This document shows positions 17,207-33,438 of a DNA stretch of 59,481 nt, piece after piece; positions within the stretch are counted from its first letter, which is position 1; every line of letters begins with the position of its first letter. The position numbers and the translations under genes were made by a program. This DNA is from Fibrobacterota bacterium (lineage in GTDB: Bacteria; Fibrobacterota; Fibrobacteria; UBA11236), in contig JAHFCH010000001.1 in NCBI GenBank assembly GCA_023249635.1, positions 67,718 through 127,198 on the forward strand, given 5' to 3'. The notes under the pieces are model-generated. The model ran no database searches. It was not told where the DNA came from and worked only from the letters and a program-made list of their open reading frames with translations.

Positions 17207-19138
17207 CTATGGAGATGAGGGCGGCTGCAGGCGCAACCATTCCAAATCGAGCGCGCCCGCTCCGGTTTCGACCCGAAGCGTATCCACGCCTCCGGTGAGG
17301 TGGACGCGCACGCGCCGGAGATTGAAATAGGGAGCCATGGGTACGTCCTGTCGCGCGAGCGCGTCCCCGACCCGTCCGGCTTGGAACCATCCTGAGTCGG
17401 GCATACGGCAGCGTAGCTCCAGGTCCCAATCCCCGCTGTCCGCCTGTACCCTATAGGCGGCCCAGTCTCCGGCCGGCAGGGCATGGATGGCCAAGCTCCC
17501 GGCTTCCCCGGAAGTATCCACCTTGAAGGCCGTGTCCGTCGCATGCAATGCGTAACCTTCCGCCGGGATGGTGTCCCCGACCCGCCAGGGATGGTAGGCA
17601 TCCGCGGTTCCCACGGCCGCGAAGAAATCCCGTTGGATGCCCGCGAATCCGGTTGTCCCGGAGGGAATATCCAGGAACCCGTATTCGGCCCCGGCGCCGA
17701 CCGGCTGCTTTCCCGCTGCGGGCACGACGGAAGGGCGGGCTCCCGTCAGCAACTCCCCATCGTATAGGAAGGCCGCGCCGGCCATATCGCCGAAGAAGCG
17801 GAAGGGATGGTTCGCCGCCGCGTATCGCTCCGCAACGGCTTCCGCGAAACGGTTCCCCGGTAACAGGGGCGTTACCTTGGCGAGGGTGTCCCAGGTGAAA
17901 GCGGTTCCCCATTCCACCAGGCGGCAGCGCTGCGAGGCTACGTACACGGCAAGGGTATCTTCCCCGGGACGATTGAAATTGAAAGTGGCGAAAACGATCA
18001 TGCGTTCGGCGATGGCCGGATCGGAAAGCACGGCGGAAGCCACCGTGGTCATGGGGCCGCCCGCGAAGACCAGCAGGGGCTTCTCGGGAGTGGCTTTGGC
18101 GGCCTCGGCGGCGATCAGGGCGCTGCCCGGGCTCGGCAGGGGAACGATATCCTCCCAACGGCCGGAAGCGGGCAAGGACAGGCGACCGGAGACTCCCGCC
18201 ACCGGTTCGGGAATATTGCGGAGGCCCGCATGGCGCGCGATTTCCAGTTCGCGGAAACTGGGCCGGTAAAAGGCCCGGAAGGATTCGGCGTCCGCGCCCG
18301 GCACCCCGGGCAGGATGAGACCGCGCAAATCGGCTTTGCCCAGGCTGGCCTGAACCCACAGGAACTCGTCATCGGCGGTATTGTCGAACCGATCGTTGTC
18401 GTAGATGATGGGGTTGCCCGCGGCGAAACCTTCCAGATGCAGGCGGCCGCCGGACAGATCAAAGACCTGCCGCGCGCGCTGGCCCAACACCACCTCGCCG
18501 ACATCGGTGGTGGAATCGGGAGCAACCGGGATACCGGCCAGATCGACGCTGTCCTGGAATGGCAGGCGGCTGGAGAAGCTCAAGCCGTGGACGCCCGCAG
18601 GCACACCGGCCAGGACGAAGGCTCCGGCGCTATCGGCAAGCGCAGCGATGCCCAAGCCGTAGATCCGCGCCAGGGAAGGGCGGCGCGCGCCATCGGCATA
18701 GCGTATCCTGCCGGTTACCTGGCCGGGATGCCGCAGGGATATCGCGGGGAAATCCAGGCGGGCGGCGGTATCCGCGAAAGTGGCCTCCACGACGGCAGCC
18801 AGGGAATCACCGCAACGCATCTCGATGCGGTAGGACCCGGCCGGGATGGAATCGAAATGGAACCGGCCCTGGGCATCCGCTTGCGCCTTGCGCGTGCCCC
18901 GCGTCGACGGGGAGGATTCCAGGGGATCCTTGAGGTACTCAACCGCGCGTAACTCCAGCATGGCGCATTTCGCCGCAGCGCCCCCGGGGAGCAGAATGCG
19001 GCCGGTGGCTTTCGCGCCACCGGTCTCGGTATCCGTCGCACCCCCGGCCACGGCGATATCCCTTCCGCAACCGATGGGCCCGGAAAGCATCGCCAACGCA
19101 GCGCAGATTAGCAGCAAAGAGCGCGCCGCGGCCCTCAT
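17207..19138 (-). CDS. Lipoprotein with nucleoside-hydrolase-like domain, coupled to TIGR02147 regulator
   Basis: The protein has 643 residues. The frame is open far upstream, but ATG 19138 overlaps the TIGR02147 stop (ATGA) and gives a signal peptide with lipobox GPIGC near residue 23. After DTETGG come two carboxypeptidase-regulatory-like domains (about residues 40-200). Then a domain starts IIYDNDRFDNTADDEF, resembling the Asp cluster of inosine-uridine nucleoside hydrolases. It continues LLVFAGGPMTTVASAVL, like the GPLTN segment of that family and of DUF1593 proteins. The C-terminal 120 residues look like a CBM6/35-type sandwich (VDTLRVETGAGALDLEWL). Probably a surface glycan-related enzyme or receptor; the hydrolytic function is inferred only. 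Confidence 0.68.
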   Translation of the reverse strand: MRAAARSLLLICAALAMLSGPIGCGRDIAVAGGATDTETGGAKATGRILLPGGAAAKCAMLELRAVEYLKDPLESSPSTRGTRKAQADAQGRFHFDSIPAGSYRIEMRCGDSLAAVVEATFADTAARLDFPAISLRHPGQVTGRIRYADGARRPSLARIYGLGIAALADSAGAFVLAGVPAGVHGLSFSSRLPFQDSVDLAGIPVAPDSTTDVGEVVLGQRARQVFDLSGGRLHLEGFAAGNPIIYDNDRFDNTADDEFLWVQASLGKADLRGLILPGVPGADAESFRAFYRPSFRELEIARHAGLRNIPEPVAGVSGRLSLPASGRWEDIVPLPSPGSALIAAEAAKATPEKPLLVFAGGPMTTVASAVLSDPAIAERMIVFATFNFNRPGEDTLAVYVASQRCRLVEWGTAFTWDTLAKVTPLLPGNRFAEAVAERYAAANHPFRFFGDMAGAAFLYDGELLTGARPSVVPAAGKQPVGAGAEYGFLDIPSGTTGFAGIQRDFFAAVGTADAYHPWRVGDTIPAEGYALHATDTAFKVDTSGEAGSLAIHALPAGDWAAYRVQADSGDWDLELRCRMPDSGWFQAGRVGDALARQDVPMAPYFNLRRVRVHLTGGVDTLRVETGAGALDLEWLRLQPPSSP

Positions 19139-19983
19139 GCGCGCTTCCGGGTCAAAGGGAACAGATTCACGGTCATCTGGTACACGGCCTCGGGTCCGGC
19201 ATCCTGGCGGGCCGTCTCCATGGCATGGGTCCGGAAATCCCGCAGCCGCCCGATAATCTTCTCGAAACCCTTGCGCGACAGGCTCATGGTGGTAGAAGAA
19301 GCGATGCGATCCGCGGGCGCGCAACGTTCGAAGGCTTCGATGGCCATCTCCAGCATCTTCACCTGATGGCGGATGATCTGGTAATCCTGGATGCCGAAAC
19401 CGGTGGTGATGAGCGGCTCGGCCTGGACGTAGCGGCCTTTGTCCTTCGCCAGGAAACCCAGCTCCAGGAGGAGCTGAACCGATTCCTCCGCCTTCTCCGC
19501 GCTGATGGCCGGGTTGAGCATCCGCCCCAGCGCCCCGAAATCGGGGGCCCCGGAGGGCCCCTCCTTGAAATCCGTCATCACAACCAGCTCGCGGATCACG
19601 CAATGGTGCCAGTCGCGAAAATAACCGTACTGATCCTTGCGGATGCGCAGGATGTTACGCGCCTTCTGGAGCGCGATCAATCGATCAAAGAACTGGTTCT
19701 TCTCGCGCACGGTGCGGGCCTGGTTGAAGAAGACCAGATGCTCGAAATACTCCGCCTCCTTGTCCTTGAGCCCGAGCGCCGAGCAGGTCTTAAGCAAGGT
19801 GCTCTTGGTGAGGTTGCGCGTGCCTTCGATGAGGAACTTGAAGAAGGGCGCGGAGTTGATGCCGGCCTTTTCTGCCAGGTAGCGATAGGAGAAATTCGGA
19901 TTCACCGCCTTATGGCGTTCGTAGTAGTCCTTGATGAACTTCCGGTAATCGGAATACTCGTAGATATCGTCCATGGACCCCAT
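19135..19983 (-). CDS. TIGR02147 family HTH regulator (copy 1)
   Basis: The protein has 282 residues; ATG 19974 is an alternative start. It opens with IYEYSDYRKFIKDYYE and then an XRE-like helix-turn-helix, YLAEKAGINSAPFFKFL followed by NLTKSTLLKTCSALGL (about residues 34-72). An all-helical middle follows, and it ends with the family signature VYQMTVNLFPLT. TIGR02147 is a paralogous family expanded in Fibrobacter, with DUF4423-like architecture. Its stop overlaps the start of the lipoprotein gene (ATGA). A perfect GTTTACA palindrome precedes its promoter and also the mannosidase promoter, making it the best candidate to bind both. DNA binding is inferred from the HTH. Confidence 0.82.
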   Translation of the reverse strand: MGSMDDIYEYSDYRKFIKDYYERHKAVNPNFSYRYLAEKAGINSAPFFKFLIEGTRNLTKSTLLKTCSALGLKDKEAEYFEHLVFFNQARTVREKNQFFDRLIALQKARNILRIRKDQYGYFRDWHHCVIRELVVMTDFKEGPSGAPDFGALGRMLNPAISAEKAEESVQLLLELGFLAKDKGRYVQAEPLITTGFGIQDYQIIRHQVKMLEMAIEAFERCAPADRIASSTTMSLSRKGFEKIIGRLRDFRTHAMETARQDAGPEAVYQMTVNLFPLTRKRA

Positions 19984-20040
19984 CGGCCGAAGGCTTCGCG
20001 CGCAGTCCCGGGGACGCGGCGGCGAAACGCCGGCTCCCCG

Positions 20041-20102
20041 AATCTAACCGAAAGGGCCGCTTTCAGGGGGTGGGGACGGCCCGCCCGTTTACACCTGTAA
20101 AC
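20041..20102 (-). promoter_or_regulatory. TIGR02147 promoter: TAGATT -10 and GTTTACA-N2-TGTAAAC operator
   Basis: GGTTAGATT lies at 20049 to 20041 on the minus strand and the perfect palindrome at 20087-20102, again 37 bases apart, exactly as at 17106-17167. The expected -35 (CCCCTG) is poor. The palindrome sits inside the last codons of the fucosidase gene ending at 20063. Confidence 0.7.
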
Positions 20103-21943
20103 ACCTGTTCCTCCAAAACCCCAAGCGCACCGCCCCCGGGCGAGCGCAGTAAGCCTTGTGGATGGCCGGGTTTTACGCGGTTTCGGGACAACGAGGATGC
20201 GGGCGTTTCCGACATCGATCCGAAGACCTTCACGTTGCGCAGGTGCAACCAACCGTTTTCCCTAAGGCCCAGCTTAAGGTAGCGTCCGGCGATGCCCTTG
20301 CCCTCGGCACCGCCCAGGACCGCATTCCAGACTTCCGCGGCTTCGGTAGCGCGCCATGCTTCCGTCCACGCCTTCCCGTCCCCGGACACCCAGGCGGTCA
20401 GGGTGCGCGCGCGCGCCCGGAAAGCCGTGTCTGCGCGATTGGCGATTTGCAATCCCATCACCCGCGCATCGGCCCCCAGGTCGATTACCAGGCTTGGCGA
20501 CTCTTCCTGATCGGTATGGAAGGCGAAATCCTTGGCGTCCCCGGATAGCAACTCCGCGCGCGACGCGTTAAAGGGATCGAGGACGGAACTTTGCGTGTAT
20601 GCGAGGCCGGGCGAAAGCCAGGATCCGTTCATCACCATCCGGATGGTTTCCGCCACGGGGTCACGTCCCGCCTTTGGTACCGTAACAATCAAGTTACCTC
20701 CGGCGCGGGAAACCCCCACTTGCCCGCCACCCAGTCGGGACGTGGAGAGGACTTGCAAGGGGATGTCCGGAAGCACGCATCGATCGGAACCGTCCCATTT
20801 GAGCACATGGACGTAGATGGTATCGCCGCGCCAAGTGGCGCCCCCCCAAGCCCCAGGGACCCAGGGTCCGCCCCGGGTGCCGTACAGGCCTTCCGCATGG
20901 ACCGTGGTCCAGGCCCCTATGGACCGTAACATGGCGGCTTCATTGGCGGCCATCCGGCCGTCCGGACCCGGCCCGATATTGAGCATGTAGTTGCCGTCGC
21001 CTCCCAACGTCTGGACGATCTCCCGGATGTAATCGGAAACGGGTCGCATCACGTTGCCGGGGCGGTACGCCCATTGATCGGCAAGGGTATTGCAGGTCTC
21101 CCAGGGGCGACGCAAATCGAAAGCGCCAATCTGCTTTTCCGGGGTATCGTAGTCACCGGGCGCCGCGGGAAAGTCGCGGGCCCAACCGCCCCGATCGCCG
21201 TACACGCGATTGTCGATGACGAGAGAGGGCTTAAGCAGTTTCAACGTCCGGTATACGTCCTTGCCGTAAGCGTGGCCGCCCTGGGACCAGGTGGCATCCC
21301 AATCCCCGTCGAACCAAATCGCGCCCGGGTCATACTTGGCGATCAGCTCTCCTACCTGCGACTTGAGATAAGCCACGTAGCGATCCATGCTGGGCGCCTG
21401 TCCCGCAGGCAACGCGTATCCGGGGCCGCCCGGGCCGGCCGGCTGCCAATCCGGTTGGTACCAGTCCAACACCGAATAATACGCGTCGAAACGCACGCCT
21501 TGGCGCTTGCATTCCCGCGTCAGCTCCCCGGTCGCATCGCGGCCGAAAGGCGATGCCATGATGTCGTAATCGGTGAACTTGGAATCCCACAGGCAGAATC
21601 CGTCATGATGCTTCGTGGTCAGGGTCAAGTAGCGGAAGCCGCCGGCCTTGGCCACGTCCACCCATTCACGAGCGTCAAAACCCGTCGGATTGAAGCCCTT
21701 ATACAGGCCGTCGTATTCGGCGCGGGGAACCTGGGTGCCGCGGGACCAGCCGATTTCGGTGCCTTTCAGGCTTACCGGTCCCCAGTGGATGAACAGCCCC
21801 AAGCGTGAGTAGCGCCATGCCGCCAATCCCTTGGCGGTCGAATCGGGGTGGGGATCGCCTTGCGCCCCCGCCCGGTGCGCCGATATCGTCCCGGCCAATG
21901 CCATGGCGGCTCCCAGCCGCATCATCTTGTCCATCATTTCCAT
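20063..21943 (-). CDS. GH29 alpha-L-fucosidase (copy 1) with C-terminal F5/8 domain
   Basis: The protein has 626 residues. ATG 21943 follows an AAGGGGGG ribosome-binding run. The signal peptide ends HRAGAQ. GH29 hallmarks are RLGLFIHWGP, LTTKHHDGFCLWDSKFTDYD, and AIWFDGDWD near residue 220, where the Asp of WFDG is the expected nucleophile; GGDGNYMLNIGPGPDG follows. About residues 460-575 form an F5/8-type C carbohydrate-binding domain ending LHLRNVKVFG. A 51-residue low-complexity tail follows, overlapping the regulatory region of the TIGR02147 gene. It is paralogous to and downstream of the second fucosidase, with AraC-type boxes before both. It is probably a secreted enzyme removing alpha-fucose from plant, algal or animal glycans. 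Confidence 0.9.
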   Translation of the reverse strand: MEMMDKMMRLGAAMALAGTISAHRAGAQGDPHPDSTAKGLAAWRYSRLGLFIHWGPVSLKGTEIGWSRGTQVPRAEYDGLYKGFNPTGFDAREWVDVAKAGGFRYLTLTTKHHDGFCLWDSKFTDYDIMASPFGRDATGELTRECKRQGVRFDAYYSVLDWYQPDWQPAGPGGPGYALPAGQAPSMDRYVAYLKSQVGELIAKYDPGAIWFDGDWDATWSQGGHAYGKDVYRTLKLLKPSLVIDNRVYGDRGGWARDFPAAPGDYDTPEKQIGAFDLRRPWETCNTLADQWAYRPGNVMRPVSDYIREIVQTLGGDGNYMLNIGPGPDGRMAANEAAMLRSIGAWTTVHAEGLYGTRGGPWVPGAWGGATWRGDTIYVHVLKWDGSDRCVLPDIPLQVLSTSRLGGGQVGVSRAGGNLIVTVPKAGRDPVAETIRMVMNGSWLSPGLAYTQSSVLDPFNASRAELLSGDAKDFAFHTDQEESPSLVIDLGADARVMGLQIANRADTAFRARARTLTAWVSGDGKAWTEAWRATEAAEVWNAVLGGAEGKGIAGRYLKLGLRENGWLHLRNVKVFGSMSETPASSLSRNRVKPGHPQGLLRSPGGGALGVLEEQVFTGVNGRAVPTP

Positions 21944-21971
21944 TTTCCCCCCTTACCCGCCCACGACAGCT

Positions 21972-22036
21972 AAGGTAGGCGAACCGGCGGAAAGGGCAAT
22001 TGCCCCGGATCACCTTGGGTGGTATTTTTTCACCAT
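21972..22036 (-). promoter_or_regulatory. Fucosidase copy 1 promoter with AraC-type box
   Basis: Reading on the minus strand, a GTGAAAAAA box (22033 to 22025) is followed by ACCA and then GGTGA, with a degenerate second box 20 bp downstream, and TACCTT (21977 to 21972) as the -10 candidate. The block aligns with the one before fucosidase copy 2 and is 56 bp from its -10, versus 57 bp there. It lies in the last codons of copy 2. Confidence 0.55.
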
Positions 22037-23992
22037 GGGATCGGCGACGGGGATTTTGCCGCGCGGGAGGTTCCGGCCATCGGCACGGTAACTTGCGGGA
22101 TACCCTGTCCTATTCGTCGCCGGCTTCGCTGCCATAGCGCGCAAAGCCGCGGCATAGGGCCGGTCCGGCTCCGGATTCCCGAACACTTTCACGTTGGCCA
22201 GGTGCAGCCAATTGCGTTCCCGCAACCCTACCTTTACGAACCTTGCCGTCCGGCCCAGGCCCGTACCCTTCTGGGCGGGAATGGCTGCGCTCCAATAGGG
22301 CCTTGCCCCGTCCGCCCGCCAGGCCTCTTCCCAGGCCAGCCCATCGCGGGAAAGCCATATCGTCAGAGTGCGGGCGCGCGCCTGGAAATCCTGGACCTGG
22401 CTATTGACCGTGGCATGCGCGCTGCGGTTGGCGATATCCACCGAAGCCACCGTCATGAGCCTTCCCAGGTCCAGGACGATGGAGGGGGAATCCTCCAGGG
22501 CCGTATGCATGGAGAAATCGCGGGCGTAGATTTCCGCGCCCAAAATACCCGCCGAATCGACGGGAGCGCCGTACATGGAGCTGGCGCGCAAGCCGGCGGT
22601 GCGGGAAAGCCAGGTACCGGGAAGTCCCAGGCCGTTCACAGCCGTCGCCAAAGGACCGGACACCGGCCCGTCGAGTTCCAGGGCGATGGTTTCGGCCAGG
22701 CTGTCGCATCCGGTGGACGGCAATTCGATGGCCAGGGAATCGGGACCCTGGGTAACTTCTACGCTACCCCCGGAAATCCGGCGGGCCGAGAGCACGCGGC
22801 GCGGAAGGCCGGGAAAACGGAACCTGCCGTCCGGGGGCCAGGCGAGGATGTGCAGGAACACGCGGTTACCCGATTGCGTCGAGGCGCCCCAGGCTCCCGG
22901 ATAGTAAGGCCCACCCCGGGTGCCGTGGATGCCTTCGCCATGCGCGTTGACCCAGCGGCCCAGCTCCATGAGGCGGGCGGCTTCCTCCGGCCGGATTTTT
23001 CCATCCGGGCCCGGGCCTACGTCGAGCAGGTAATTCCCGTCCCCTCCAATCACGGCCAGCATCTCTTGCAGCACATCCTTTACGGCCCGGACGCTTCCCC
23101 CGGGTTGATAGGACCATTGCTCCGCCAGGGTCGCGGTCGTCTCCCACGGTGAACCCGCATCGAAGGCGCCTATGGCCCGCTCCCAGGTGCGGAAATCGCC
23201 GAGGCCGCGGGCGCCTTGCAACCGGTCGTTGATCACTAGTGTGGGGCGCGCCGTTTTGAGGGTCCGATATACCGCCGCTCCCCGTTCGCCTCCCCAGGTC
23301 GCGTCCCAGTCGCCGTCGAACCAGAACGCATCGGGCCGATAGCGGTCCAGGATTTCGCTAGCCTGCGCCGCGAGATAACCCTGGTAGCGATCCATGCTGG
23401 GCGTTTGCCCGGCCGGTAACGCGAACCCCGGACCGCCCGGTCCCGCGGGCAGGTAATCCGGCTGATACCTGTCCGCCACGGAGTAGTAGGCCTGAAAACC
23501 CAAACCCTGGCGACGGCATTCCTCCGCCAGCTCCCCGGCGGGGTCGCGGGCGAAGGGCGTGGCCATTACGTTGTACGGGGAGTAGCGCGTGTCCCAAAGG
23601 CAGAACCCGTCATGATGCTTGAACGTCAAGGTCAGGTAGCGCATGCCCGCGGCCTTGGCCAGATCGACCCATGCCCGCGCCGAGAAGCCGGTCGGATCGA
23701 AGCCACGGTAGAGGGTATCGTAGTCCGCGCTGGGGATGCTGGTTCCCCGCGACCAGCTTATCTCCTGGCCGGTACGGCTTACGGGCCCCCAATGGATGAA
23801 CAACCCCAATCGCTGGGCGCGCCAGCGGGACACACCGACCTCGGTGGAGTCGGGATGGGGATCGAGGGAAGCGTCGGTTCCCGCATGGCCGCACCATAGT
23901 AACAGGGCAGTTACGGTGGCTGCGCGCGCGGAGCGGTGCCAGGCGGATAGCGGGTACGGTGGGCGTTGCGCGTGTTGCGCGGATGGCGGCAT
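22010..23992 (-). CDS. GH29 alpha-L-fucosidase (copy 2) with C-terminal F5/8 domain
   Basis: The protein has 660 residues and is clearly homologous to the neighbour at 20063-21943 over its whole length: RLGLFIHWGP, LTFKHHDGFCLWDTRYSPYN, AFWFDGDWDATW with the nucleophile Asp, GGDGNYLLDVGPGPDG, and a discoidin-like domain ending LHLANVKVFG. The N-terminus has a longer positively charged stretch before a short hydrophobic segment (ATVTALLLWCGHA), so it is secreted or possibly membrane-tethered; a Cys in that segment is not a convincing lipobox. The 55-residue tail carries the operator of the next gene. Tandem duplication with divergence suggests different fucosyl linkages. Confidence 0.9.
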   Translation of the reverse strand: MPPSAQHAQRPPYPLSAWHRSARAATVTALLLWCGHAGTDASLDPHPDSTEVGVSRWRAQRLGLFIHWGPVSRTGQEISWSRGTSIPSADYDTLYRGFDPTGFSARAWVDLAKAAGMRYLTLTFKHHDGFCLWDTRYSPYNVMATPFARDPAGELAEECRRQGLGFQAYYSVADRYQPDYLPAGPGGPGFALPAGQTPSMDRYQGYLAAQASEILDRYRPDAFWFDGDWDATWGGERGAAVYRTLKTARPTLVINDRLQGARGLGDFRTWERAIGAFDAGSPWETTATLAEQWSYQPGGSVRAVKDVLQEMLAVIGGDGNYLLDVGPGPDGKIRPEEAARLMELGRWVNAHGEGIHGTRGGPYYPGAWGASTQSGNRVFLHILAWPPDGRFRFPGLPRRVLSARRISGGSVEVTQGPDSLAIELPSTGCDSLAETIALELDGPVSGPLATAVNGLGLPGTWLSRTAGLRASSMYGAPVDSAGILGAEIYARDFSMHTALEDSPSIVLDLGRLMTVASVDIANRSAHATVNSQVQDFQARARTLTIWLSRDGLAWEEAWRADGARPYWSAAIPAQKGTGLGRTARFVKVGLRERNWLHLANVKVFGNPEPDRPYAAALRAMAAKPATNRTGYPASYRADGRNLPRGKIPVADPMVKKYHPR

Positions 23993-24022
23993 GGATTCCC
24001 GGATCCCCTATCAGATGCCGTT

Positions 24023-24088
24023 AAGGTAAGGCCTCGCGAGCAGACCGGGAACGGGCATTTTTCACCATCGTTGGTGTTTTTTCACTTA
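24023..24088 (-). promoter_or_regulatory. Fucosidase copy 2 promoter with tandem AraC-type boxes
   Basis: Two GTGAAAAA boxes lie in direct orientation at 24085-24078 and 24065-24058 on the minus strand, 20 bp apart (two helical turns), followed by a TACCTT -10 candidate at 24028 to 24023. The distal box overlaps the stop codon of the AraC gene immediately upstream, the likely regulator. Confidence 0.6.
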
Positions 24089-24897
24089 ACCTGCGGAATC
24101 CGCGCATCCTGGGCCCGGACGGCCCGTGGGGAAAGACCGGTATGCCGCTTCATCAGCTTGTTGAAGTGGTGGAGATCGGGGATGCCGACAGCACCCGCCA
24201 CCGCCTTCACAGCCATATCCGTATGGTGGAGCAGATCGAGGGCGGTGCCCACCCGCCGCGACTGGATATATTCCACCACCGAATGCCCGCGATGCTTGAG
24301 GAACAATCGCGTCAATTGGTTATGCGAATATCCTACCTCGCGGGCCAAGGCGGCCACGCGTAGCGGTTCGGCCAGGCGATCGTGGATAAGCCGGATGGCC
24401 TTACGGAAGGCGGGCGGCGCGGAAGCATCGCCTTTGGCCGCGGTACCCTTGCCCGCCGCCGCCTCCAGGAGCAGATCCCAAAGCCGCACTTCGGCGCGCA
24501 GCTTGTCTTCGCGGGCCATGGCGATGCATTCCCGGAAGCGCTCCTCCATGGCGTTGGCCCGGCGCCCCAACGCCTGCATGGCGGGCACGCGGCCGGCGGG
24601 GGACTTGGCGGGCAATTCGAAGATGGCGTAGAGATGGACCGATTTGCCCAGGAACTGGTAGCGCGCCATGGCTCCCGGGGGAGTCAGGCTCAGCGAACCC
24701 GGCGCGATGCGGAAGGCGTTCCCGTCAAGGTTCAAGGAGGCATGGTAGGTGTAGAAATGCAGCACCCAGGCATCCTTCAGGCACCAGAACTCCACGGGCT
24801 TATCGGCCCGCTGTCCCTGGGTATCCTCGCCGATGCGGATCAGCTTAGGCTTGTGTTCCAGGTCGATGGGCCAAAGGATGCTTCGGGAGTCGGGCAT
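24082..24897 (-). CDS. AraC-family transcriptional regulator, likely fucosidase activator
   Basis: The protein has 271 residues. The N-terminal part (about 1-150) is a cupin-like sensor (FRIAPGSLSLTPPGAMARYQFLG). The C-terminal 100 residues contain the two AraC HTH motifs: LRVAALAREVGYSHNQLTRLF and VKAVAGAVGIPDLHHFNKLM, followed by HTGLSPRAVR. It lies directly upstream of, and in the same direction as, the two GH29 genes; their promoters carry 20-bp-spaced GTGAAAAA repeats typical of AraC-type sites. Its start overlaps the end of the DUF2063 gene by 58 bases. The ligand is probably fucose or a fucosylated glycan, by context only. Confidence 0.85.
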   Translation of the reverse strand: MPDSRSILWPIDLEHKPKLIRIGEDTQGQRADKPVEFWCLKDAWVLHFYTYHASLNLDGNAFRIAPGSLSLTPPGAMARYQFLGKSVHLYAIFELPAKSPAGRVPAMQALGRRANAMEERFRECIAMAREDKLRAEVRLWDLLLEAAAGKGTAAKGDASAPPAFRKAIRLIHDRLAEPLRVAALAREVGYSHNQLTRLFLKHRGHSVVEYIQSRRVGTALDLLHHTDMAVKAVAGAVGIPDLHHFNKLMKRHTGLSPRAVRAQDARIPQVK

Positions 24898-25799: not shown

Positions 25800-26671
25800 C
25801 GGTAGGACCTTGCCAAAGCGGCCTCGGCGCGGACTTCCGCGAAGGCGGGTATCTTATCATCCCGTTCCAGCAGGGTGCGGAAGCCGCCGGATAGGTTCCA
25901 GGCATGCCGGTGCAATTCCCATACGTCCAAGGCCACCGGCTCGTCATGGGTATCCAGGATACTGCCGTCCGCACGGCGACGATGCCCGGCGATATGGCAT
26001 TGCAGCACCTTCCCCCAGCGGATGGAATCGAGATAGGCGCGCGGATCGAAGCCATGGTTCACGGCCGATACGAAGACGTTGTTGATATCCAGCATGTACG
26101 AGCAGCCCGAGAGCTCGATCACGCGGTTGTAGAATTCCCATTCCGACATTTCCGATCCGCGGAAAGCCACGTAACTGGAAAGGTTTTCCAACCCGAAAGG
26201 CCGGCCCAGGAAATCCTGCACGATGGCGGCCCTTTCGGCCACGTAACGCGCGTTCTCCTCGGTATGCGGGAAGGGAAGCAAGTCGTGATGTTGAATGCCG
26301 TGGGCCACGGTCCAGCACAAGTGATCGCTGGCATAAGGCGCATCGGTGAATTCCAGCAGGCGCTTGAGGCGCCGCAGGTAGGCGTAGTCCAAAGGCGCGG
26401 CCGAGGCGATGCCGAGGCTCACCCCATGCAGCACCACCGGATAGCGGGACAGGACGCGTTCCAGGTTGCGGCGGGGAAGCTCGGCATCGCCCATGAAATT
26501 CTCCGAAATGATCTCGAAGAATTCCACCTCGGGCCATTCCGAAAAAAGCGCGCGGTAATGCGGAATGCGCAGGCCGATGCCGACGGCGTGGGGGGCGATG
26601 CGCCCGCCCGCGCCGGCAACCGGAGCCAAGACATCCGGCTGGGTACCGGCATCAGTCCTGCGCATGATCAT
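25796..26671 (-). CDS. bufB: DUF692 multinuclear iron enzyme (BufB/HvfB-like)
   Basis: The protein has 291 residues. ATG 26671 overlaps the stop of the precursor gene (ATGA); the frame is open a little further but without reason. The TIM-barrel family motifs are all present: GIGLRIPHY, FEIISENFMG, VVLHGVSLGI, YASDHLCW, GLENLSSYVAF, MLDINNVFVSAVNHG, CHIAGH and DTHDEPV, giving the His/Asp/Glu set that binds two or three irons. Relatives MbnB, TglH, HvfB and BufB oxidise cysteines of a precursor peptide into oxazolone-, thioamide- or thiooxazole-type copper ligands. Here the substrate is most likely the product of the gene just upstream. Confidence 0.88.
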   Translation of the reverse strand: MIMRRTDAGTQPDVLAPVAGAGGRIAPHAVGIGLRIPHYRALFSEWPEVEFFEIISENFMGDAELPRRNLERVLSRYPVVLHGVSLGIASAAPLDYAYLRRLKRLLEFTDAPYASDHLCWTVAHGIQHHDLLPFPHTEENARYVAERAAIVQDFLGRPFGLENLSSYVAFRGSEMSEWEFYNRVIELSGCSYMLDINNVFVSAVNHGFDPRAYLDSIRWGKVLQCHIAGHRRRADGSILDTHDEPVALDVWELHRHAWNLSGGFRTLLERDDKIPAFAEVRAEAALARSYR

Positions 26672-26970
26672 GATTCGATGCAGCTCCCGCCCGCGCAGGT
26701 GGACTGGCCCTTGCAATCATGGGCCGAGACCTCCTTGCCTTCCAGGTAGCTATGGCCTTTGCAATCGTTGAGGCCGCTACAACCATGGGCGGCAAAGGCG
26801 CCGCCGGCCTTCGTGCATTCGGCCTGGAAGGCAGATAGCGTCGTGGCCGCCGTGATGCCGGTCTTGGTCTCGGTCTTGGGACCGGTGCTGTCTTTTTCGC
26901 AAGCGGTAAGCGCGAAGCTTCCCGCCATGATGCCGGCCAGCGCCAGGCGGGTCAGGGATTTCCGTTCCAT
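26668..26970 (-). CDS. bufA: Bufferin-like RiPP precursor with lipobox
   Basis: The protein has 100 residues, with GGAGGAAG upstream of the ATG. The signal peptide ends FALTAC, a fair lipobox, followed by a Thr/Lys-rich linker. The core is Cys-rich: ECTKAGG, HGCSGLNDCKG, HDCKGQSTCAGGSC, with CKG repeats like those of BufA2/HvfA metallophores, though the EGKCG motif of HvfA is absent (EGKEV instead). It precedes the DUF692 and DUF2063 genes with 4-base overlaps, as in bufferin operons, which protect against excess copper. A lipid-anchored mature product would be unusual. Family assignment rests on Cys pattern and neighbourhood. Confidence 0.75.
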   Translation of the reverse strand: MERKSLTRLALAGIMAGSFALTACEKDSTGPKTETKTGITAATTLSAFQAECTKAGGAFAAHGCSGLNDCKGHSYLEGKEVSAHDCKGQSTCAGGSCIES

Positions 26971-26985
26971 CTCTCTTCCTCCGTG

Positions 26986-27693
26986 TTAAGCCCCTACCGG
27001 GGCGGTGATGCGATTCTTGGATATGGCGATGCCATCTTCCCCGAACAATCCGGGATGCTTCTTTTGCAGGCGATCGACGATCATACAGCGGGCGCGGTGC
27101 AAGCGAACGCGGATCAGGGTGGGCGAAATGCCCAGAGCCTCGGCGGCTTCCTCGCCGCTCATCCCCTCCAGATCGCGAAGCCGGTAGGCCTCGCCGTACA
27201 GGGGAGGAAGCTCGGCGGCGGCGGCGCGAATCCAGGTGACTACGCGGGTCTGGTGCAGGGCCTCATCGGGCAGGGGATCGGGGGATTCCAAATCCCAGGC
27301 ATGGTCGCCGTCCTCATTCTGGCCGCGGCCCAACCTGTATTTTTCGGAAAGGCGATCACAGACTTTATGGTGGGCTAGAGAATACACCCAGGTGGTGAGC
27401 TTGGACTTGCCCTCGAACCGCGGCAAGGCACGGTGAACCGCCAGAAAGGTCTCCTGTAGCACATCCTGGACATGGTCCTGGTCGCGGAACCAGCGCCCGA
27501 TGTACCGGGTCAGCAGGGGGTGCATGGTCTTGACCAGCGCCCGGAAGGCCCTGGTGGACGCCGGAGCCCCGCCCAGCAAGGCTTTCAGGAAGGCCTGGGA
27601 GTTGATTTCCTGCATGGGATCGAGGGGTTTTTCCGCAATCCGGACCGTTTGCACCGAAAAGGTCCGCGCCGTCATTTCCAGGGTCGCCGTCAT
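26986..27693 (-). CDS. ECF-type sigma factor heading the bufferin operon
   Basis: The protein has 235 residues, with GGAGG six bases before the ATG. Region 2 is clear (HPLLTRYIGRWFRDQDHVQDVLQETFLAV, then LTTWVYSLAHHKVCDRL), as is region 4 (LPPLYGEAYRLRDLEGMSGEEAAEALGISPTLIRVRLHRARC). The first 40 residues are an extra N-terminal extension. It stops 15 bases before the precursor gene and so probably leads the same transcript. Bufferin operons in other phyla are also under ECF control. No anti-sigma gene is adjacent; the C-terminal 30 residues might take part in control. Confidence 0.88.
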   Translation of the reverse strand: MTATLEMTARTFSVQTVRIAEKPLDPMQEINSQAFLKALLGGAPASTRAFRALVKTMHPLLTRYIGRWFRDQDHVQDVLQETFLAVHRALPRFEGKSKLTTWVYSLAHHKVCDRLSEKYRLGRGQNEDGDHAWDLESPDPLPDEALHQTRVVTWIRAAAAELPPLYGEAYRLRDLEGMSGEEAAEALGISPTLIRVRLHRARCMIVDRLQKKHPGLFGEDGIAISKNRITAPVGA

Positions 27694-27791
27694 GGAATGC
27701 CTCCGGCCTCGCGGCCGCGGCCCGAACGCCGGGCCTGGTTAGAAGATATCCCCTTATTACGCAGGTTTTCCCCCTCCGGATGCCTTAATCC

Positions 27792-27856
27792 GTATACATT
27801 TGTTAACACCTGGAGGCCCGGAAAGGGTGGGCGCAGCCCCCTCCGTAACGTATGAT
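27792..27856 (+). promoter_or_regulatory. Variant GTTTACA-like operator and TATGAT -10 before TIGR02147 copy 2
   Basis: The site at 27792-27807 reads GTATACA-TT-TGTTAAC, one change per half from the perfect palindromes at 17152 and 20087. A TATGAT -10 candidate lies at 27851-27856, about 51 bp from its centre. The 209-base gap 27694-27902 also holds the divergent promoter of the sigma-factor gene. Confidence 0.45.
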
Positions 27857-27902
27857 TGTACCAGCCGACCTACCTGTTTAACCCAGCCGGCGCCCGACTA
27901 CC

Positions 27903-28742
27903 ATGAGCAACGAAAAAACGGAACCGGACGTCCTCCACTACTCGAATTACCGCACCTTCCTGCTCGATTACTACGAGTTCAAGAAGGCCGAGCAACCGAT
28001 CTTCTCGCACCGGTACTTCGCCCAGAAGGCGGGCATTACCAGCCCCAACTACCTGAAGCTGGTCATGGACGGCAAACGTAACCTCACCAAGAAATCCCTG
28101 CTCAAGTTCGCGGCGGCCCTGGGGCTCAAGGGATTGCGCGCGGAGTTCTTCGAAAATTTGGTATTTTTCAACCAGGCGACCGCGCTCCCGGAGCGCAACG
28201 TCCATTACGGGAACATCTTGCGTGTGCGCGCGAAGGCGGGCTTGCGTAAGCTGGACGAGGCCCAGTTCCAGCTCTTCTCGGATTGGCGGCATATCGCGGT
28301 GCGCGAATTGGCCGCGGCGAAAGGCTTCCGGCCGGACGCGAAATGGGTGGCGAAGAAACTGGGCAAGGCCATCACGGAGAAGGAGGCGGAGGAATCCCTG
28401 AAATTGCTGAGCATCCTGGGCCTGCTCAAGAAGACGGCCAACGGTTTCATGCAAAGCGACATCAACATCACCACCTCCGACGAAGTGCGTTCCCTACTCG
28501 TGAAGAATTACCACCATCAGATGATGCGCATGGGCGCCGCGGCCCTGGACAATCTGCCCGCCGCCAAACGCGACATCTCTTCCATCACCATTCCCATCCA
28601 CGCCAAGGATTTCGCCCGGGTCAAAGAACAGATCCAATTGATGCGCAAGGAGCTGCTCAATCTGGGCGCCGAGCCGGGCACCGGCGAAGATGTGGTCCAG
28701 GTGAACATCCAATTGTTCCCCCTTACCGAGATGGGGGCCTAA
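27903..28742 (+). CDS. TIGR02147 family HTH regulator (copy 2)
   Basis: The protein has 279 residues, collinear with copy 1: VLHYSNYRTFLLDYYE, then YFAQKAGITSPNYLKLVMDGKRNLTKKSLLKFAAALGL as the XRE-like HTH, FFENLVFFNQA, a helical middle with KEAEESLKLLSILGLL, and the C-terminal signature VVQVNIQLFPLT. It is 4 bases upstream of a lipoprotein gene, repeating the arrangement at 17207-19983. It is divergent from the ECF/bufferin operon. A role as a transcription regulator of its own lipoprotein operon is inferred from the HTH and the operator-like site upstream. Confidence 0.82.
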   Translation: MSNEKTEPDVLHYSNYRTFLLDYYEFKKAEQPIFSHRYFAQKAGITSPNYLKLVMDGKRNLTKKSLLKFAAALGLKGLRAEFFENLVFFNQATALPERNVHYGNILRVRAKAGLRKLDEAQFQLFSDWRHIAVRELAAAKGFRPDAKWVAKKLGKAITEKEAEESLKLLSILGLLKKTANGFMQSDINITTSDEVRSLLVKNYHHQMMRMGAAALDNLPAAKRDISSITIPIHAKDFARVKEQIQLMRKELLNLGAEPGTGEDVVQVNIQLFPLTEMGA

Positions 28743-28746
28743 GCTC

Positions 28747-29475
28747 ATGCGGCGTCTAGCGGCAGGCCTGCTTACGGCTTTGCCGGCCATGCTGGCCACT
28801 CTGGCCTTGTCGGCCTGCAACCGGCTGGCCGGCACCGAAGTAGGTAACCCGGAGGTTACGGTAGCGGCCCGTTTCGCCGTGCTCGACACCTCCGCGGCCG
28901 CCGATATCCCTTCCATGAACCTCAAGGTGATGGGCATGGGCTATACCATGTCTTCCGGAGGCGGGGACAGCGGGGTATGCTGGAACGCCCCCAATGGCCA
29001 TATGGTGGACTTCGCCGCCGACGCGGCCAATCCCTTGCCCCCGGTGACCATCCACGAAGGCGAATGGAGCAAGGCGGAATTGCTCCTGCAATCCGCGACG
29101 ACGGCCGAGAGCCTACCCGATTCCGTGCCCTTCCAGGCCTGGTCGAATCCGCGCTACGCCAAGCTCATGCGTATCAATGGCCCCGATACCCTGCGGGCCC
29201 TGTTCGATATGCCCCAGGGCATGCGCCTGCGGCTGATGTTCGGCAAGGATAGGGTCACACGCTGGCGCAGCGGCGATACGGTCATGGTCAAGGTGATGTT
29301 CGACGCGGGGAAATGGACGAACGGGCTCGATCCCCGCGGCTCCTTCCAATCCCGGAAGGATGGGAACCACGTGAGTTATGTTCTGTTCTCGGCCACGGAG
29401 AATTCCGCGGTCTGGGCTTCCCTCAAGGACCGGTTCCCCACCGCCTTCTCCGCCGACACCGCCGCCATGGAATAG
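28747..29475 (+). CDS. Lipoprotein paired with TIGR02147 copy 2
   Basis: The protein has 242 residues. The signal peptide ends with lipobox LALSAC (Cys near residue 24), followed closely by AGTEVGNPEVTV. The rest is of no family known to me. Predicted features are beta-rich segments (LRALFDMPQGMRLRLMFGKD, DTVMVKVMFDAGKW) and a central Gly/Ser loop. The GTEVGN motif resembles DTETGG and GSETTN in the lipoproteins coupled to the other two TIGR02147 genes. It is probably exposed in the outer membrane or periplasm. A MITE-like element begins 14 bases after its stop. Confidence 0.7.
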   Translation: MRRLAAGLLTALPAMLATLALSACNRLAGTEVGNPEVTVAARFAVLDTSAAADIPSMNLKVMGMGYTMSSGGGDSGVCWNAPNGHMVDFAADAANPLPPVTIHEGEWSKAELLLQSATTAESLPDSVPFQAWSNPRYAKLMRINGPDTLRALFDMPQGMRLRLMFGKDRVTRWRSGDTVMVKVMFDAGKWTNGLDPRGSFQSRKDGNHVSYVLFSATENSAVWASLKDRFPTAFSADTAAME

Positions 29476-29489
29476 CGGCGCGCCGCTTA

Positions 29490-29668
29490 GGGTCCGTTAA
29501 CAAATAAATGGAACAAAGGAGCCCCCAGATGGGGGTCAGATTGGCCTGAACGGATTGAGCGAAACCCGAGGCATAGCATCGCTATGTTGAGGGTTTCGCG
29601 ATTGACGTTCGGGCCAAGATGGCCCGCAGATGGGTGGCGAACTGTTTCAGTTATTTGTTAACGGACCC
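29490..29668. mobile_element. MITE-like element with 18-bp terminal inverted repeats
   Basis: The ends are perfect inverted repeats GGGTCCGTTAACAAATAA (29490-29507) and its complement (29651-29668). They are flanked by a direct TTA (29487-29489 and 29669-29671) that looks like a 3-bp target duplication, as in TNA-targeting groups of the IS5 family. The 179-bp element has no ORF. Its interior holds a nested hairpin (CGAAACCC with GGGTTTCG around CATAGC/GCTATG, about 29560-29600). The right TTA also encodes the stop codon (TAA) of the dioxygenase gene. Confidence 0.75.
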
Positions 29669-30556
29669 TTAGCCGAGGCGCACCGAAGTCATGGTGAGCG
29701 AACCCGCCACCGCCTTATCATTGAACAAGACGGCTTCGTCCGTTTTCTCCTGCAGACCCAGGGCGTAAAGCAGCGGGTAATAATGGTCCGGCGTGGGGAT
29801 GGCCAGCTTGGCGGCCTCACCCATCGAGGTATAATCGATCAACGGAGCATGATTACGCTCGCGGATATGCTTGGCGAATTTGGCCTTCATCTCCATGGCC
29901 CAATCGAATCCGTACTCGGGACCGTTGATGCGATCGAACGCCACCTTACGCAGGTTATGCACCATGTTGCCGCTGGCGAGGATCAACACGCCCTTCTCGC
30001 GCAAAGGCGCCAGCTCGCGTCCCAGATCGTAATGCCATTGCGGCGGTCGATGGAAATCTATGCTCAGTTGCAGCACCGGGACATCGGCCTTGGGATACAT
30101 GCGGCGGATGACGCTCCAGGCGCCGTGGTCCAGGCCCCAATCATGATCGTCCGGCTGGGCGGTAATGGATTTCAAGGTGCGGATGGTTTCCTCCGCCATG
30201 GCCGGGCTGCCCGGTGCAGGATACTGCACGTCGAACAATTCCTTGGGGAAGCCGCCGAAATCGTGGATGGTCGGAGGCTTCTCCATGGCGGTCACGTAGG
30301 TTCCGCGGGTAAGCCAATGCGCCGAGATGCACAAAACGGCTTTGGGTACGGGAAGGTCTCGCGCGGTCTTCTCCCAGGCCGCGGTGAATTCATTGTCCTC
30401 AATGGCGTTCATGGGAGAGCCGTGCCCCATGAAGAGCACGGGCATCTTTTCCCCTGGCTTGAGCGCGCGGGTAGCTTGGGCGAATGTGTTGAGGTCCATA
30501 CTTCTCACCGCCATGGGGATGAAGGGAAGGGCTTTAAGGAAGTCTCTGCGATCCAT
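29669..30556 (-). CDS. ygiD: 4,5-DOPA-extradiol-dioxygenase-like protein (YgiD family)
   Basis: The protein has 295 residues. The N-terminus MDRRDFLKAL resembles a truncated Tat-type leader that other YgiD homologues also carry. Family residues are present: VLFMGHGSPMNA, LCISAHWLTRGTYV, DHGAWSVIRRMYP, LSIDFHRPPQWHYDLG and ASGNMVHNLRKV, giving the His ligands of the metal site in class III extradiol dioxygenases. They oxidise catechol-type compounds such as L-DOPA; the natural substrate in bacteria is uncertain. The stop codon coincides with the target duplication of the adjacent MITE-like element, so the reading frame ends at its natural position or very near it. Confidence 0.88.
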   Translation of the reverse strand: MDRRDFLKALPFIPMAVRSMDLNTFAQATRALKPGEKMPVLFMGHGSPMNAIEDNEFTAAWEKTARDLPVPKAVLCISAHWLTRGTYVTAMEKPPTIHDFGGFPKELFDVQYPAPGSPAMAEETIRTLKSITAQPDDHDWGLDHGAWSVIRRMYPKADVPVLQLSIDFHRPPQWHYDLGRELAPLREKGVLILASGNMVHNLRKVAFDRINGPEYGFDWAMEMKAKFAKHIRERNHAPLIDYTSMGEAAKLAIPTPDHYYPLLYALGLQEKTDEAVLFNDKAVAGSLTMTSVRLG

Positions 30557-30835
30557 GTGCGACTCGGAGGTTAATATACGTTATAACGACTATCCTTGCT
30601 ACGCTTTTCCCCATCCTTGCAACCATCCCCTCCGAGGGCAAACCGCATATAATCCCCGCAATCCCCTCAAAAAACCCGCCAGCGTTGATAAATAGCTACA
30701 ACGGATTCTTCCCAGGCCACCCCACCGGGGGGACAAACCCGGCCTATATTGAAGCGAACGGCAGGTATTCCGGGGGGAAGCGTTGATAATTCGGGTTCAG
30801 GATGGTCCGGTAGGTATGATGGGTAGAGGTTCGCG
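30557..30835. other. Divergent intergenic region, no gene seen
   Basis: The 279 bases lie between the dioxygenase gene and TIGR02147 copy 3. On the plus strand there is a perfect TATAAT at 30648-30653 without a recognisable -35, a small palindrome CGTTATAACG at 30579-30588, and an 11-base direct repeat AGCGTTGATAA at 30681-30691 and 30779-30789. No GTTTACA palindrome was found here. Confidence 0.35.
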
Positions 30836-31693
30836 ATGAGCGACAAAGCACCCAACGTATTCGACTACCTGAACTACCACGCCTTCCTGAAGGATCTTTA
30901 CGAGCTTCGCAAGGCCCGCAATACCTATTTCTCCTACCGCTACCTGGGCAAATTGTTGAGCCTCGACGCGGGCTTCCTGGTCAAGGTGATGCAAGGCAAG
31001 CTGGCGCTCCCGGAAAAATGCCTGCCCGCGTTGCTTAAGCTGTGCGCGTTCGAAGGTCGCGAAGCCGATTACCTGCGGGAGCTGCTCCTCTACGGCCGGG
31101 CCAAGACGGTGAAATCAATCAAGCTCCATTTCGAGAACATGATCGCCCTGCGCGGCCTCGGCTCCCGCAAGATCGAACTGGGCCAATACGCCTTCTACCA
31201 GAAGTGGTACCATAGCGCCATCCATTGCCTGCTCATGTTCCACGATTTCGGCGGCGACTATAAGGCCTTGGCCGCGCGCTTGAGCCCGCCCATCACGGTC
31301 AAGGAAGCCAAGGACTCGGTGCAATTGCTGATCGAATTGGGCTTCGTCAAATTACAGGAAGATGGGCGCCACCAGGTGACCGATGTGCGCCTGACCAGCG
31401 GTGAAAAATGGCAATCGGCCGCCGTGCGCAATTTCCAGGAAGAATGCTGGAAGTTGGCGGGAGAATCCTGGGGACGGCATCCCAAGGAAATCCGCGATTT
31501 GTCCACGGTAACCATCACCATGTGTTCCAAGAACCTGGAAGAGATACGCCAACGCATCAAGGAGCTGCGGCAATCCCTGCTGCACATGGGGTCCGAAGGC
31601 GGCGATCCGGATTCTGTCTACCAGGTGAATATCCAGCTGTTCCCCATGACCCAGGTGGGCAAGGGCGAAGAGACCCAAGCGGGGGCGGCATGA
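30836..31693 (+). CDS. TIGR02147 family HTH regulator (copy 3)
   Basis: The protein has 285 residues, the most diverged of the three copies. The family framework is intact: VFDYLNYHAFLKDLYE, then YRYLGKLLSLDAGFLVKVMQGKLALPEKCLPALLKLCAF where the HTH is expected, VKEAKDSVQLLIELGFV, and the signature VYQVNIQLFPMT. The HTH is less canonical than in copies 1 and 2 (LLSLDAG in place of KAGINS), so the DNA target may differ. Its stop overlaps the start of a lipoprotein gene (ATGA). Confidence 0.8.
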   Translation: MSDKAPNVFDYLNYHAFLKDLYELRKARNTYFSYRYLGKLLSLDAGFLVKVMQGKLALPEKCLPALLKLCAFEGREADYLRELLLYGRAKTVKSIKLHFENMIALRGLGSRKIELGQYAFYQKWYHSAIHCLLMFHDFGGDYKALAARLSPPITVKEAKDSVQLLIELGFVKLQEDGRHQVTDVRLTSGEKWQSAAVRNFQEECWKLAGESWGRHPKEIRDLSTVTITMCSKNLEEIRQRIKELRQSLLHMGSEGGDPDSVYQVNIQLFPMTQVGKGEETQAGAA

Positions 31694-33438
31694 AAACGCG
31701 CCACTTCCCCTGGAGCCATACCCTTTCCGCGTGCCTATTGGCCTGCGCCGCCGTCGCCGCATGCCTGCTGGGCGCGGCCATCCTCTCCGGATGCGAATTC
31801 ACTTCCACCACCGGTGGTTCCGAAACCACCAATGGTCTCACGGGCCGGATCCAGGATGGCGAGGGCAAACCCATCGCCCATGCCCCCGTGGTATTGGTGC
31901 CCGCCGATTTCATGCCCGTGCCCGGCAAGGATACCCGCACGCCCGTGGCCACGCGTACCGATGCCAATGGCCGATACCGTTTCTCCACGGTCGCCGCGGG
32001 CACCTACGATTTGGAATCGCGTGACTCGACGCGCGGCCTCAAGGCCTGGTTGCCCGGCCTCCGCATCGACGCGGACCAGACTTCGGCATTGACGGTCGAT
32101 GGTACCTTGAAAGTTACGGGAACCCTGAAGATACCTTTCGCCGGTCGCCACCTGCCCGAGAACGCCATCCTGTTCGTGCCCGGTAGCAGTTTCGCGATCA
32201 GCATCGTCGGCAAGCTGGACGATAAGGGATTCCTGACCGTATCCGGATTGCCCGAGGGCGACTACCCCGTACTGATGGCCTATTTCCCTGACACCTCGGA
32301 CGGCGCGCCCATCGCTGTCGCGGAGGCGTTCCACATCACCTCCGGGGATACCGCGCGTCCCTCGGCCTTCGCCGCCTGGGCCCATTCCCGCACGCTGCGT
32401 TTCGACCTCGGCGCCAACGGGGCCGACGTGGCCACCGCCGCATCCTCCCGGGGTTCCGCCGGGAACGCCGGCTATCCCCTGCTGGTGCGGTTGCGCGCGC
32501 CGGAATTCGACTTCTCCCAGGCGCGTTCCGGCGGCGAGGACATCCGCTTCGCCCGCGCCGACGGCGCCCTGTTGCCCTTCCAAATCGAACGCTGGGACGC
32601 CGCCGCCGGCGAGGCCATCGCGTGGATCCGCCTGGACGATCCCAAATCCGGTCCCGATTCCCTGCTCGTATATTGGGGCCGCAAAGATGCCCGCGATCTC
32701 GGCGAAGCCGCCCGCGTATTCGACACGGCCCAGGGCCTGCGTGCCGCCTGGCACCTGGGCGAATCGGCGCAGGCCGCCGCCGGGGGTTACCGCGACGCTA
32801 CCCTATCCGCCTGGCACGCATCGGCCACGCCTTCTCCCGCCGTTGGCGCGGCGGCCTCGGCCGTGGTCGGGCTGGGCAAGGGCTTCGCGGAAAGCGATAC
32901 AGGACAAATGTCCGCACCGCTACCCGCCGCATGGGGTGGGAACGCCGCTTTCACGATAACCTTCTGGATGAAGTTCTCCATGTCCTCCAAACGCATCGGC
33001 GTGCTCGCCTTGGGCGAGGAATCCCCGCTGCGCGGTTTCCATTTCCTCGTGCGGCCGGATACCACCGCCCAATTCGGTCCTTGGGACAGCACCCCCGACG
33101 CCGAACCCTCGGCGCAGCAGAACCATTTCAGCTTGGCCCCGTACCTGGGGACCTGGGCGCACGTGGCCACCGTATACGATCCGCGCTCGCAATTGTTGCG
33201 CACCTGGATCAACGGCGCCTTGGCCGCGGAGAATACCCTGGCTTCCCTGGATTTGCATCCCGGTGCCGGCATCCGTTTCGGCCACGCCATCCATAAGGGG
33301 ATTTCCGGGCCCGGCGAGGCCAACCTCGAAGGGGCCCTGGACGAAGTGCGGGTATACGGGCGCGCCTTGGATGCGGCCGAGATCAAACTGGATTACGCAA
33401 CGCAACGGCAAGACGCCGCGATAGTGGAGTGGCATTGA
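31690..33438 (+). CDS. Lipoprotein with carboxypeptidase-like, DUF2341 and LamG domains
   Basis: The protein has 582 residues from ATG 31690 (ATGA overlap with TIGR02147 copy 3). The lipobox is AILSGC near residue 37, followed by TGGSETTNG. Residues of about 48-120 form a carboxypeptidase-regulatory-like domain, with a second beta domain to about 230. A DUF2341-like unit then appears (YPLLVRL, EDIRFARADGALLPFQIERW, SLLVYWG), followed by a LamG/concanavalin-like jelly roll (FTITFWMKF, WAHVATVYD, LRTWINGALAAEN, ALDEVRVYGRAL). Such proteins bind glycans or cell-surface ligands. It is probably an outer-membrane lipoprotein regulated by its partner. Confidence 0.75.
   Translation: MKTRHFPWSHTLSACLLACAAVAACLLGAAILSGCEFTSTTGGSETTNGLTGRIQDGEGKPIAHAPVVLVPADFMPVPGKDTRTPVATRTDANGRYRFSTVAAGTYDLESRDSTRGLKAWLPGLRIDADQTSALTVDGTLKVTGTLKIPFAGRHLPENAILFVPGSSFAISIVGKLDDKGFLTVSGLPEGDYPVLMAYFPDTSDGAPIAVAEAFHITSGDTARPSAFAAWAHSRTLRFDLGANGADVATAASSRGSAGNAGYPLLVRLRAPEFDFSQARSGGEDIRFARADGALLPFQIERWDAAAGEAIAWIRLDDPKSGPDSLLVYWGRKDARDLGEAARVFDTAQGLRAAWHLGESAQAAAGGYRDATLSAWHASATPSPAVGAAASAVVGLGKGFAESDTGQMSAPLPAAWGGNAAFTITFWMKFSMSSKRIGVLALGEESPLRGFHFLVRPDTTAQFGPWDSTPDAEPSAQQNHFSLAPYLGTWAHVATVYDPRSQLLRTWINGALAAENTLASLDLHPGAGIRFGHAIHKGISGPGEANLEGALDEVRVYGRALDAAEIKLDYATQRQDAAIVEWH

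Follow-up and report, generated by a model that had tools for sequence, protein, structure and literature searches.

In polysaccharide utilisation loci, a regulator (SusR or a hybrid two-component protein), SusD lipoproteins and secreted enzymes lie side by side. In Clostridium thermocellum, the SigI-RsgI systems consist of several paralogous pairs, each combining a fixed regulatory part with a variable carbohydrate-sensing outer domain (PMC12203970). Here we describe gene pairs in a stretch of 59,481 nucleotides (nt) from a Fibrobacterota bacterium (contig JAHFCH010000001.1, positions 67,718 to 127,198; hereafter the window), in which a helix-turn-helix (HTH) regulator of the TIGR02147 family is coupled to a lipoprotein. 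Their likeness to SigI-RsgI is one of plan only, not of membership: there a sigma factor is held by a transmembrane anti-sigma factor, whereas here an HTH protein is paired with a lipoprotein. Neither the regulators nor their partners nor the scanned neighbours showed the domains of polysaccharide utilisation loci, and the unit here is just one regulator with one lipoprotein. Activators of class I, for example CRP centred at -61.5, resemble these regulators in the operator position, which we estimate from the -10 hexamer at near -60 to -64, but they belong to another protein family and use other DNA sites. In our reading the unit would behave as a one-component regulator does in a surface-type operon; what sets it apart is a fixed sequence tag on the lipoprotein and the scale of amplification.

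All three regulators in the window are full-length members of TIGR02147 (Fsuc_second), with scores of 265.6, 274.0 and 237.4 bits for regulators 1, 2 and 3 (E 5e-79, 1.3e-81 and 2e-70; the curated NCBIfam cut-off is 50 bits over the full model), and each has a C-terminal DUF4423 (Pfam PF14394) of 99.1, 140.8 and 110.5 bits, respectively (cut-off 30 bits). A Pfam scan of the regulators placed DUF4423 as the sole family above cut-off; a sigma factor domain was not found, and HTH_3 stayed under its cut-off (E 0.093). The two database entries describe a paralogous family without function, and the lipoprotein partner, the tag and the palindromes reported below are not part of them. Each regulator gene is directly followed by a lipoprotein gene, as an earlier note on this DNA had claimed, with offsets of -4, +4 and -4 nt, and the lipoproteins carry signal peptides with a lipobox cysteine, read from the sequence as PIGC24, LSAC24 and LSGC35 (partners 1 to 3). 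Partner 3 matches Laminin_G_3 and DUF2341, and no Pfam family passes cut-off in partner 2; partner 1, which had been called nucleoside-hydrolase-like, has a weak IU_nuc_hydro match that lies below cut-off (E 0.0056).

The same note had counted this module three times; the three pairs stand, but the genome of the window (6.75 Mb in 341 contigs) holds about 74 of them. All of its TIGR02147 sites were taken with up to ~4 kb of flank, genes being predicted by a home-made caller and signal peptides by a home-made rule based on hydrophobicity and small residues. Among 85 TIGR02147 matches, 79 are full length. Of these, 74 are followed within 150 nt by a gene on the same strand; that gene overlaps the regulator's stop in 64 of the 74 pairs, and in 72 it encodes a signal peptide with a lipobox cysteine. 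The background lipoprotein rate is 12-13% among 247 other genes at the same loci, three of the lipoproteins so called being misplaced partners. Because about 74 pairs occur in the genome against a lipoprotein background of about 12%, chance pairing is excluded. In the reading that we favour, a TIGR02147 gene and its lipoprotein gene form one heritable two-gene module, present here in about 74 paralogous copies. Short TIGR02147 matches of ~110 residues comprising the HTH part only were also seen, on contigs C262, C229, C176 and C96.

Beyond this genome, the family occurs in 141 of 151 genomes drawn from Fibrobacterota. In 16 genomes from 13 other families of the phylum, a same-strand gene followed within 100 nt at 89 of 97 sampled sites, and in 85 of those 89 the gene was called as a lipoprotein or as carrying a signal peptide. 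Named genomes, scanned for related loci with seven closer regulator sequences, gave 80 loci, mostly from Fibrobacter and Chitinispirillaceae, where the arrangement is the same, and also from Bdellovibrionia, Oligoflexia and Myxococcales. One to eight TIGR02147 copies are carried by 19 of 96 drawn Myxococcota genomes, and nearly all strong sites there are followed by a lipoprotein with G-T-x-V-G-N-P, the tag form of window partner 2; most strong Bdellovibrionota sites are likewise paired with a signal-peptide or lipoprotein gene. The earlier note had regarded its module idea as failing if TIGR02147 genes mostly lacked a following lipoprotein gene, and what we find is that the pairing is the rule in the phylum and beyond: it is real, old and unusually strict.

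The pairs had also been described as a fixed regulator type with variable lipoproteins unrelated in their main domains. This holds for the C-terminal domains, which vary across the genome (LamG, DUF2341, CBM6, LRR; a CarboxypepD_reg match is present in 43 of 72 partners), but not for the N-terminus, where all three window partners share a tag after the anchor cysteine. Its consensus is G-[GT]-[GS]-[ST]-[ED]-[TV]-[GET]-N-[GP], in the forms AGG-x-[ST]-E-T-x-N-G or G-T-E-V-G-N-P. Expectation maximisation (EM) over 71 partners gave a log-likelihood of 642 for the tag, against 238-255 for shuffled sequences, and the tag was called in 71 of the 74 adjacent partners by a model trained on these same partners. 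A position matrix trained on this genome, with its threshold at the 99% shuffle level, recovered 52 of 85 held-out partners from other genomes, none of 22 other lipoproteins and none of 337 other genes; a regular expression in its place was abandoned, the strict form being too narrow and the loose form unspecific (75 of 323 background genes). A whole-genome profile search gave 60 motif-covering matches at E<1e-5, of which 55 are immediate partners and the remaining five are two extra lipoproteins (C316), two truncated remnants (C111, C287) and one at a contig end (C153); no tagged lipoprotein was found in the genome away from a TIGR02147 gene or a contig edge. In the Myxococcota set, each of the 20 matches at E<=0.015 comes immediately after a TIGR02147 gene (the model had included 18 of them, and two were held out).

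Codon third positions in the tag region match the background, so selection on the tag acts on the protein, and a DNA site inside the gene was rejected. The tag follows the cysteine at a distance of about 1 to 35 residues. In the structural model of partner 2 (mean predicted local distance difference test score, pLDDT, 84; ten sequences), residues 20-31 score under 50, and residue 36 marks the start of a beta-rich domain; hence the tag looks like a linear, flexible segment between the lipid anchor and the folded domain rather than part of a core. At one locus (L078, contig C316) a single TIGR02147 regulator is followed by two to three tagged lipoproteins in a row, and the remnants, of ~55 residues, lie by duplicated modules (L039:1711-1878 and L040:5124-5291).

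Regulators and partner N-termini co-vary in their pairwise distances (Mantel r 0.46, 0/5000 permutations), while regulators and signal peptides do not (r 0.02). In partial Mantel tests the association was strongest for regulator residues 105-185, the winged-helix part (r 0.31, 0/2000; HTH 0.135, C-terminus 0.109), which is only a hint; joint duplication alone yields correlation. The regulator model (mean pLDDT 89.7) contains a winged helix and a pair of long helices. Its residues 12-97 can be aligned to HTH proteins, HigA among them (Z 8.1-8.5), and the winged helix, residues 115-189, to ArsR-type proteins (Z 8.2-8.6). No whole-regulator match is present among the structural matches listed, and neither the regulator nor partner 2 had a significant relative in a sequence search of solved structures.

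Upstream regions were compared clade by clade, among same-genus relatives of each window regulator; an operator common to all regulators was rejected, and only these clade-wise footprints worked. In the regulator 3 clade, CGTTG-N11/12-CAACG occurs in 8 of 8 upstreams (regulator 3 and seven relatives) within a region where little else aligns; in 50 shuffled sets, no half-site was shared by more than 3. The regulator 1 clade has GTTTAC-N4-GTAAAC in 7 of 9 upstreams (shuffles <=2 with a 6-nt half-site, <=4 with a 5-nt one). For regulator 2, four orthologues share one and the same 17-mer, CGTATACATTTGTTAAC, amid diverged flanks; its half-site test fell below significance because the palindrome is imperfect. 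The palindromes differ in sequence among the three clades, which fits private operators, and the regulators very probably bind them. Such clade-specific palindromes upstream of all three window regulators support the earlier proposal that each lipoprotein is switched by its own regulator. The best -10 hexamer lies at 38-43 nt in 24 of 34 operator flanks searched from 8 to 71 nt (shuffled flanks: mean 3.2, maximum 9 in 2000 sets), a spacing by which the operator would be centred at about -60 to -64, as in class I activators; no conserved -35 was found in the footprints of the three clades.

Copies of the palindrome also stand before other genes; in the window, that of regulator 1 recurs as a perfect copy at 17152-17167, ahead of the GH38-like gene. 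In the region orthologous to module 1 in genome G079 (L373), operator, regulator, lipoprotein, second operator (an identical 16-mer in the same place) and GH38-like gene are all retained, and at other loci second operator copies stand ahead of genes for a dienelactone-hydrolase-like protein (L375) and a sugar dehydrogenase (L390) and, 11 kb away, of a ThuA gene (L377). The operator between regulator 2 and a divergent extracytoplasmic function (ECF) sigma gene keeps that arrangement in three orthologues.

We hypothesize that the regulator is a cytoplasmic one-component transcription factor, made up of an XRE-type HTH and, after it, a DUF4423 winged helix, which would recognise a clade-private palindrome whose centre lies ~60-64 nt before the start of transcription estimated for its own unit, and in some cases also one before a neighbouring secreted carbohydrate-processing gene, where the same regulator would act. 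It would most likely be a class-I-type activator, leading to positive autoregulation. The lipoprotein would be made in step with it and anchored via the lipidated cysteine, presenting the conserved flexible tag and then a variable, often lectin-like domain, and its likely role would be in capturing a substrate, or acting on one, whose use is under the module's control. Overall we favour this reading, in which each module is an autoregulated switch of local reach, probably working by activation, and its tagged lipoprotein is obligate, at a probability of roughly 0.62. Within it, activation rather than repression is probable, and a carbohydrate-related role for most modules is plausible to a slightly lesser degree.

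Several observations weigh against it. The preference for activation comes from operator position alone, and the upstreams of relatives are not independent samples. Beyond the three window clades, k-mers, EM and palindrome counts found no clean operator, and the distance from palindrome to -10 has no single peak; palindromes were no commoner upstream of regulators than of control genes in one test and modestly commoner in another. Seven of the 79 regulators are without a clearly tagged adjacent partner (five have no adjacent partner, at C6:3655, C126:10570, C112, C23 and C229, and two, at C10:45817 and C60:44607, have one with a low tag score), plus one that ends at a contig edge (C152). The signal-peptide calls come from the home-made rule and not from SignalP, and the structural matches of the regulator cover one domain at a time, at Foldseek E values above 0.2 and Z scores not far from those of common arrangements.

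Other explanations share much of this evidence. The tag could be a trafficking or surface-display signal for a dedicated envelope machine, unrelated to the regulator, so that the module would be a surface lipoprotein with a local regulator; its place between lipid anchor and folded domain, disordered in the model, and the lectin-like domains of the partners suit this idea, and we regard it as a real contender, if somewhat short of even odds. The tag's distance from the cysteine varies widely, however, in contrast to sorting signals that occupy a fixed place after it, and the tag was absent both from the 22 other lipoproteins and from any lipoprotein of the genome away from TIGR02147. An autorepressor, for which the palindrome would be a silencer and the module would be expressed when a ligand releases the regulator, is likewise compatible with the palindromes, which are autoregulatory sites under either reading, and XRE-type regulators often repress themselves. 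The sites of repressors usually overlap with the promoter, whereas in all three clades the palindrome lies some 38-43 nt upstream of the -10 with no conserved -35, a position that favours activators and leaves repression unlikely.

Obligate one-to-one coupling, a tag restricted to the partners and co-variation peaking at the winged-helix part would also be expected if the lipoprotein precursor or its exported form acted on its own regulator, for instance if the unexported form held the regulator via the tag and thereby sensed export. Joint duplication by itself yields co-variation, however, and partial Mantel tests are easily misled; such feedback is doubtful, to much the same degree as repression. 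The adjoining of lipoprotein and HTH regulator genes recalls enterococcal pheromone systems, in which case the regulator would sense a peptide from the lipoprotein signal sequence, but signal peptides that have no conserved sequence and do not co-vary with the regulators led us to reject this as highly improbable. The regulator model likewise shows no clear RRNPP-type repeat array, and ComR appears among its Foldseek matches at E 0.74 only. To the favoured reading of autoregulated switches one may tentatively add that the tag links the lipoprotein to its own regulator or to a dedicated handling factor, although the odds are rather against it. Bolder, and less likely again, is a hitherto unrecognised form of envelope-to-gene signalling in at least three phyla, in which the tag would be read by the cognate DUF4423 regulator directly or via a dedicated factor. 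Each of dozens of lipoproteins would then control how its own gene and those of the enzymes for its substrate are transcribed.

The pairing is not described in the literature that could be searched: no paper there names 'TIGR02147' or 'Fsuc_second', nothing relevant concerns such regulator-lipoprotein pairs, and DUF4423 appears once, in a Bdellovibrio proteome table. The genome paper of F. succinogenes reports few recognisable regulators near cellulase genes, a handful only (PMC3079729), and some CarboxypepD_reg lipoproteins of this species shift in abundance between cellulose and glucose (PMC6851124). The module offers a first testable function for a family that reaches 79 full-length genes in one genome, within a phylum to which cellulose and chitin degraders belong; the tag makes partner lipoproteins recognisable by sequence, and the palindromes make regulons predictable clade by clade. 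If the tag does link lipoprotein and regulator, it would represent a new signalling route across the envelope.

Table 1. Features of the three modules in the window, with candidate operators and promoter elements.
Feature	Position	Strand	Remark
GH38-like secreted protein (Glyco_hydro38C2, DUF7402)	12970..17061	-	likely regulator 1 target
-10-like TAGATT	17106..17111	-	40 nt 3' of second palindrome
Second perfect palindrome GTTTACAAGTGTAAAC	17152..17167		90 nt upstream of GH38-like gene
Lipoprotein partner 1, 643 aa	17207..19138	-	4-nt ATGA overlap with regulator 1
Partner 1 tag GGATDTETG	19019..19045	-	
Regulator 1	19135..19983	-	TIGR02147 (HTH + DUF4423)
-10-like TAGATT	20041..20046	-	40 nt 3' of regulator 1 palindrome
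Operator-like palindrome GTTTACACCTGTAAAC	20087..20102		upstream of regulator 1; conserved in its clade
Operator-like CGTATACATTTGTTAAC	27791..27807		between divergent ECF sigma gene and regulator 2
-10-like TATGAT	27851..27856	+	43 nt 3' of regulator 2 palindrome
Regulator 2	27903..28742	+	TIGR02147 + DUF4423
Lipoprotein partner 2, 242 aa, beta-rich domain	28747..29475	+	begins after 4-nt gap from regulator 2
Partner 2 tag GTEVGNP	28831..28851	+	
Operator-like GCGTTGA-N10-CAACG	30682..30703		upstream of regulator 3; half-site CGTTG in 8/8 relatives
-10-like TATATT	30745..30750	+	41 nt 3' of regulator 3 palindrome
Regulator 3	30836..31693	+	TIGR02147 + DUF4423
Lipoprotein partner 3, 582 aa (CarboxypepD_reg, DUF2341, Laminin_G_3)	31690..33438	+	4-nt ATGA overlap with regulator 3
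Partner 3 tag GGSETTNG	31813..31836	+	

By regulator 2 there is a row of genes for the ECF sigma factor (26986-27693), a small lipoprotein (26668-26970), an MbnB/TglH/ChrH-type enzyme of ribosomally synthesised and post-translationally modified peptides (RiPPs; 25796-26671, E 5.8e-94) and a DUF2063 protein (24840-25799). The model of partner 2 aligns to 7l6g_D (MbnP) with Z 8.3 over 174 aligned residues at 3.8 A, the next row having Z 6.0, and the stretch 24840-27693, next to regulator 2 and its possibly MbnP-like partner, may be a metal-related RiPP locus. A LigB-type dioxygenase-like gene (29669-30556), convergent with partner 2, is kept by the orthologous module in genomes G059 and G090. 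Upstream of module 1 (20063-24897) are two alpha-L-fucosidase genes of glycoside hydrolase family 29 (GH29) and an AraC-type regulator, and module 3 is followed by an FG-GAP repeat protein (33552-36164), which also occurs after a related module in G079 (L383:4022).

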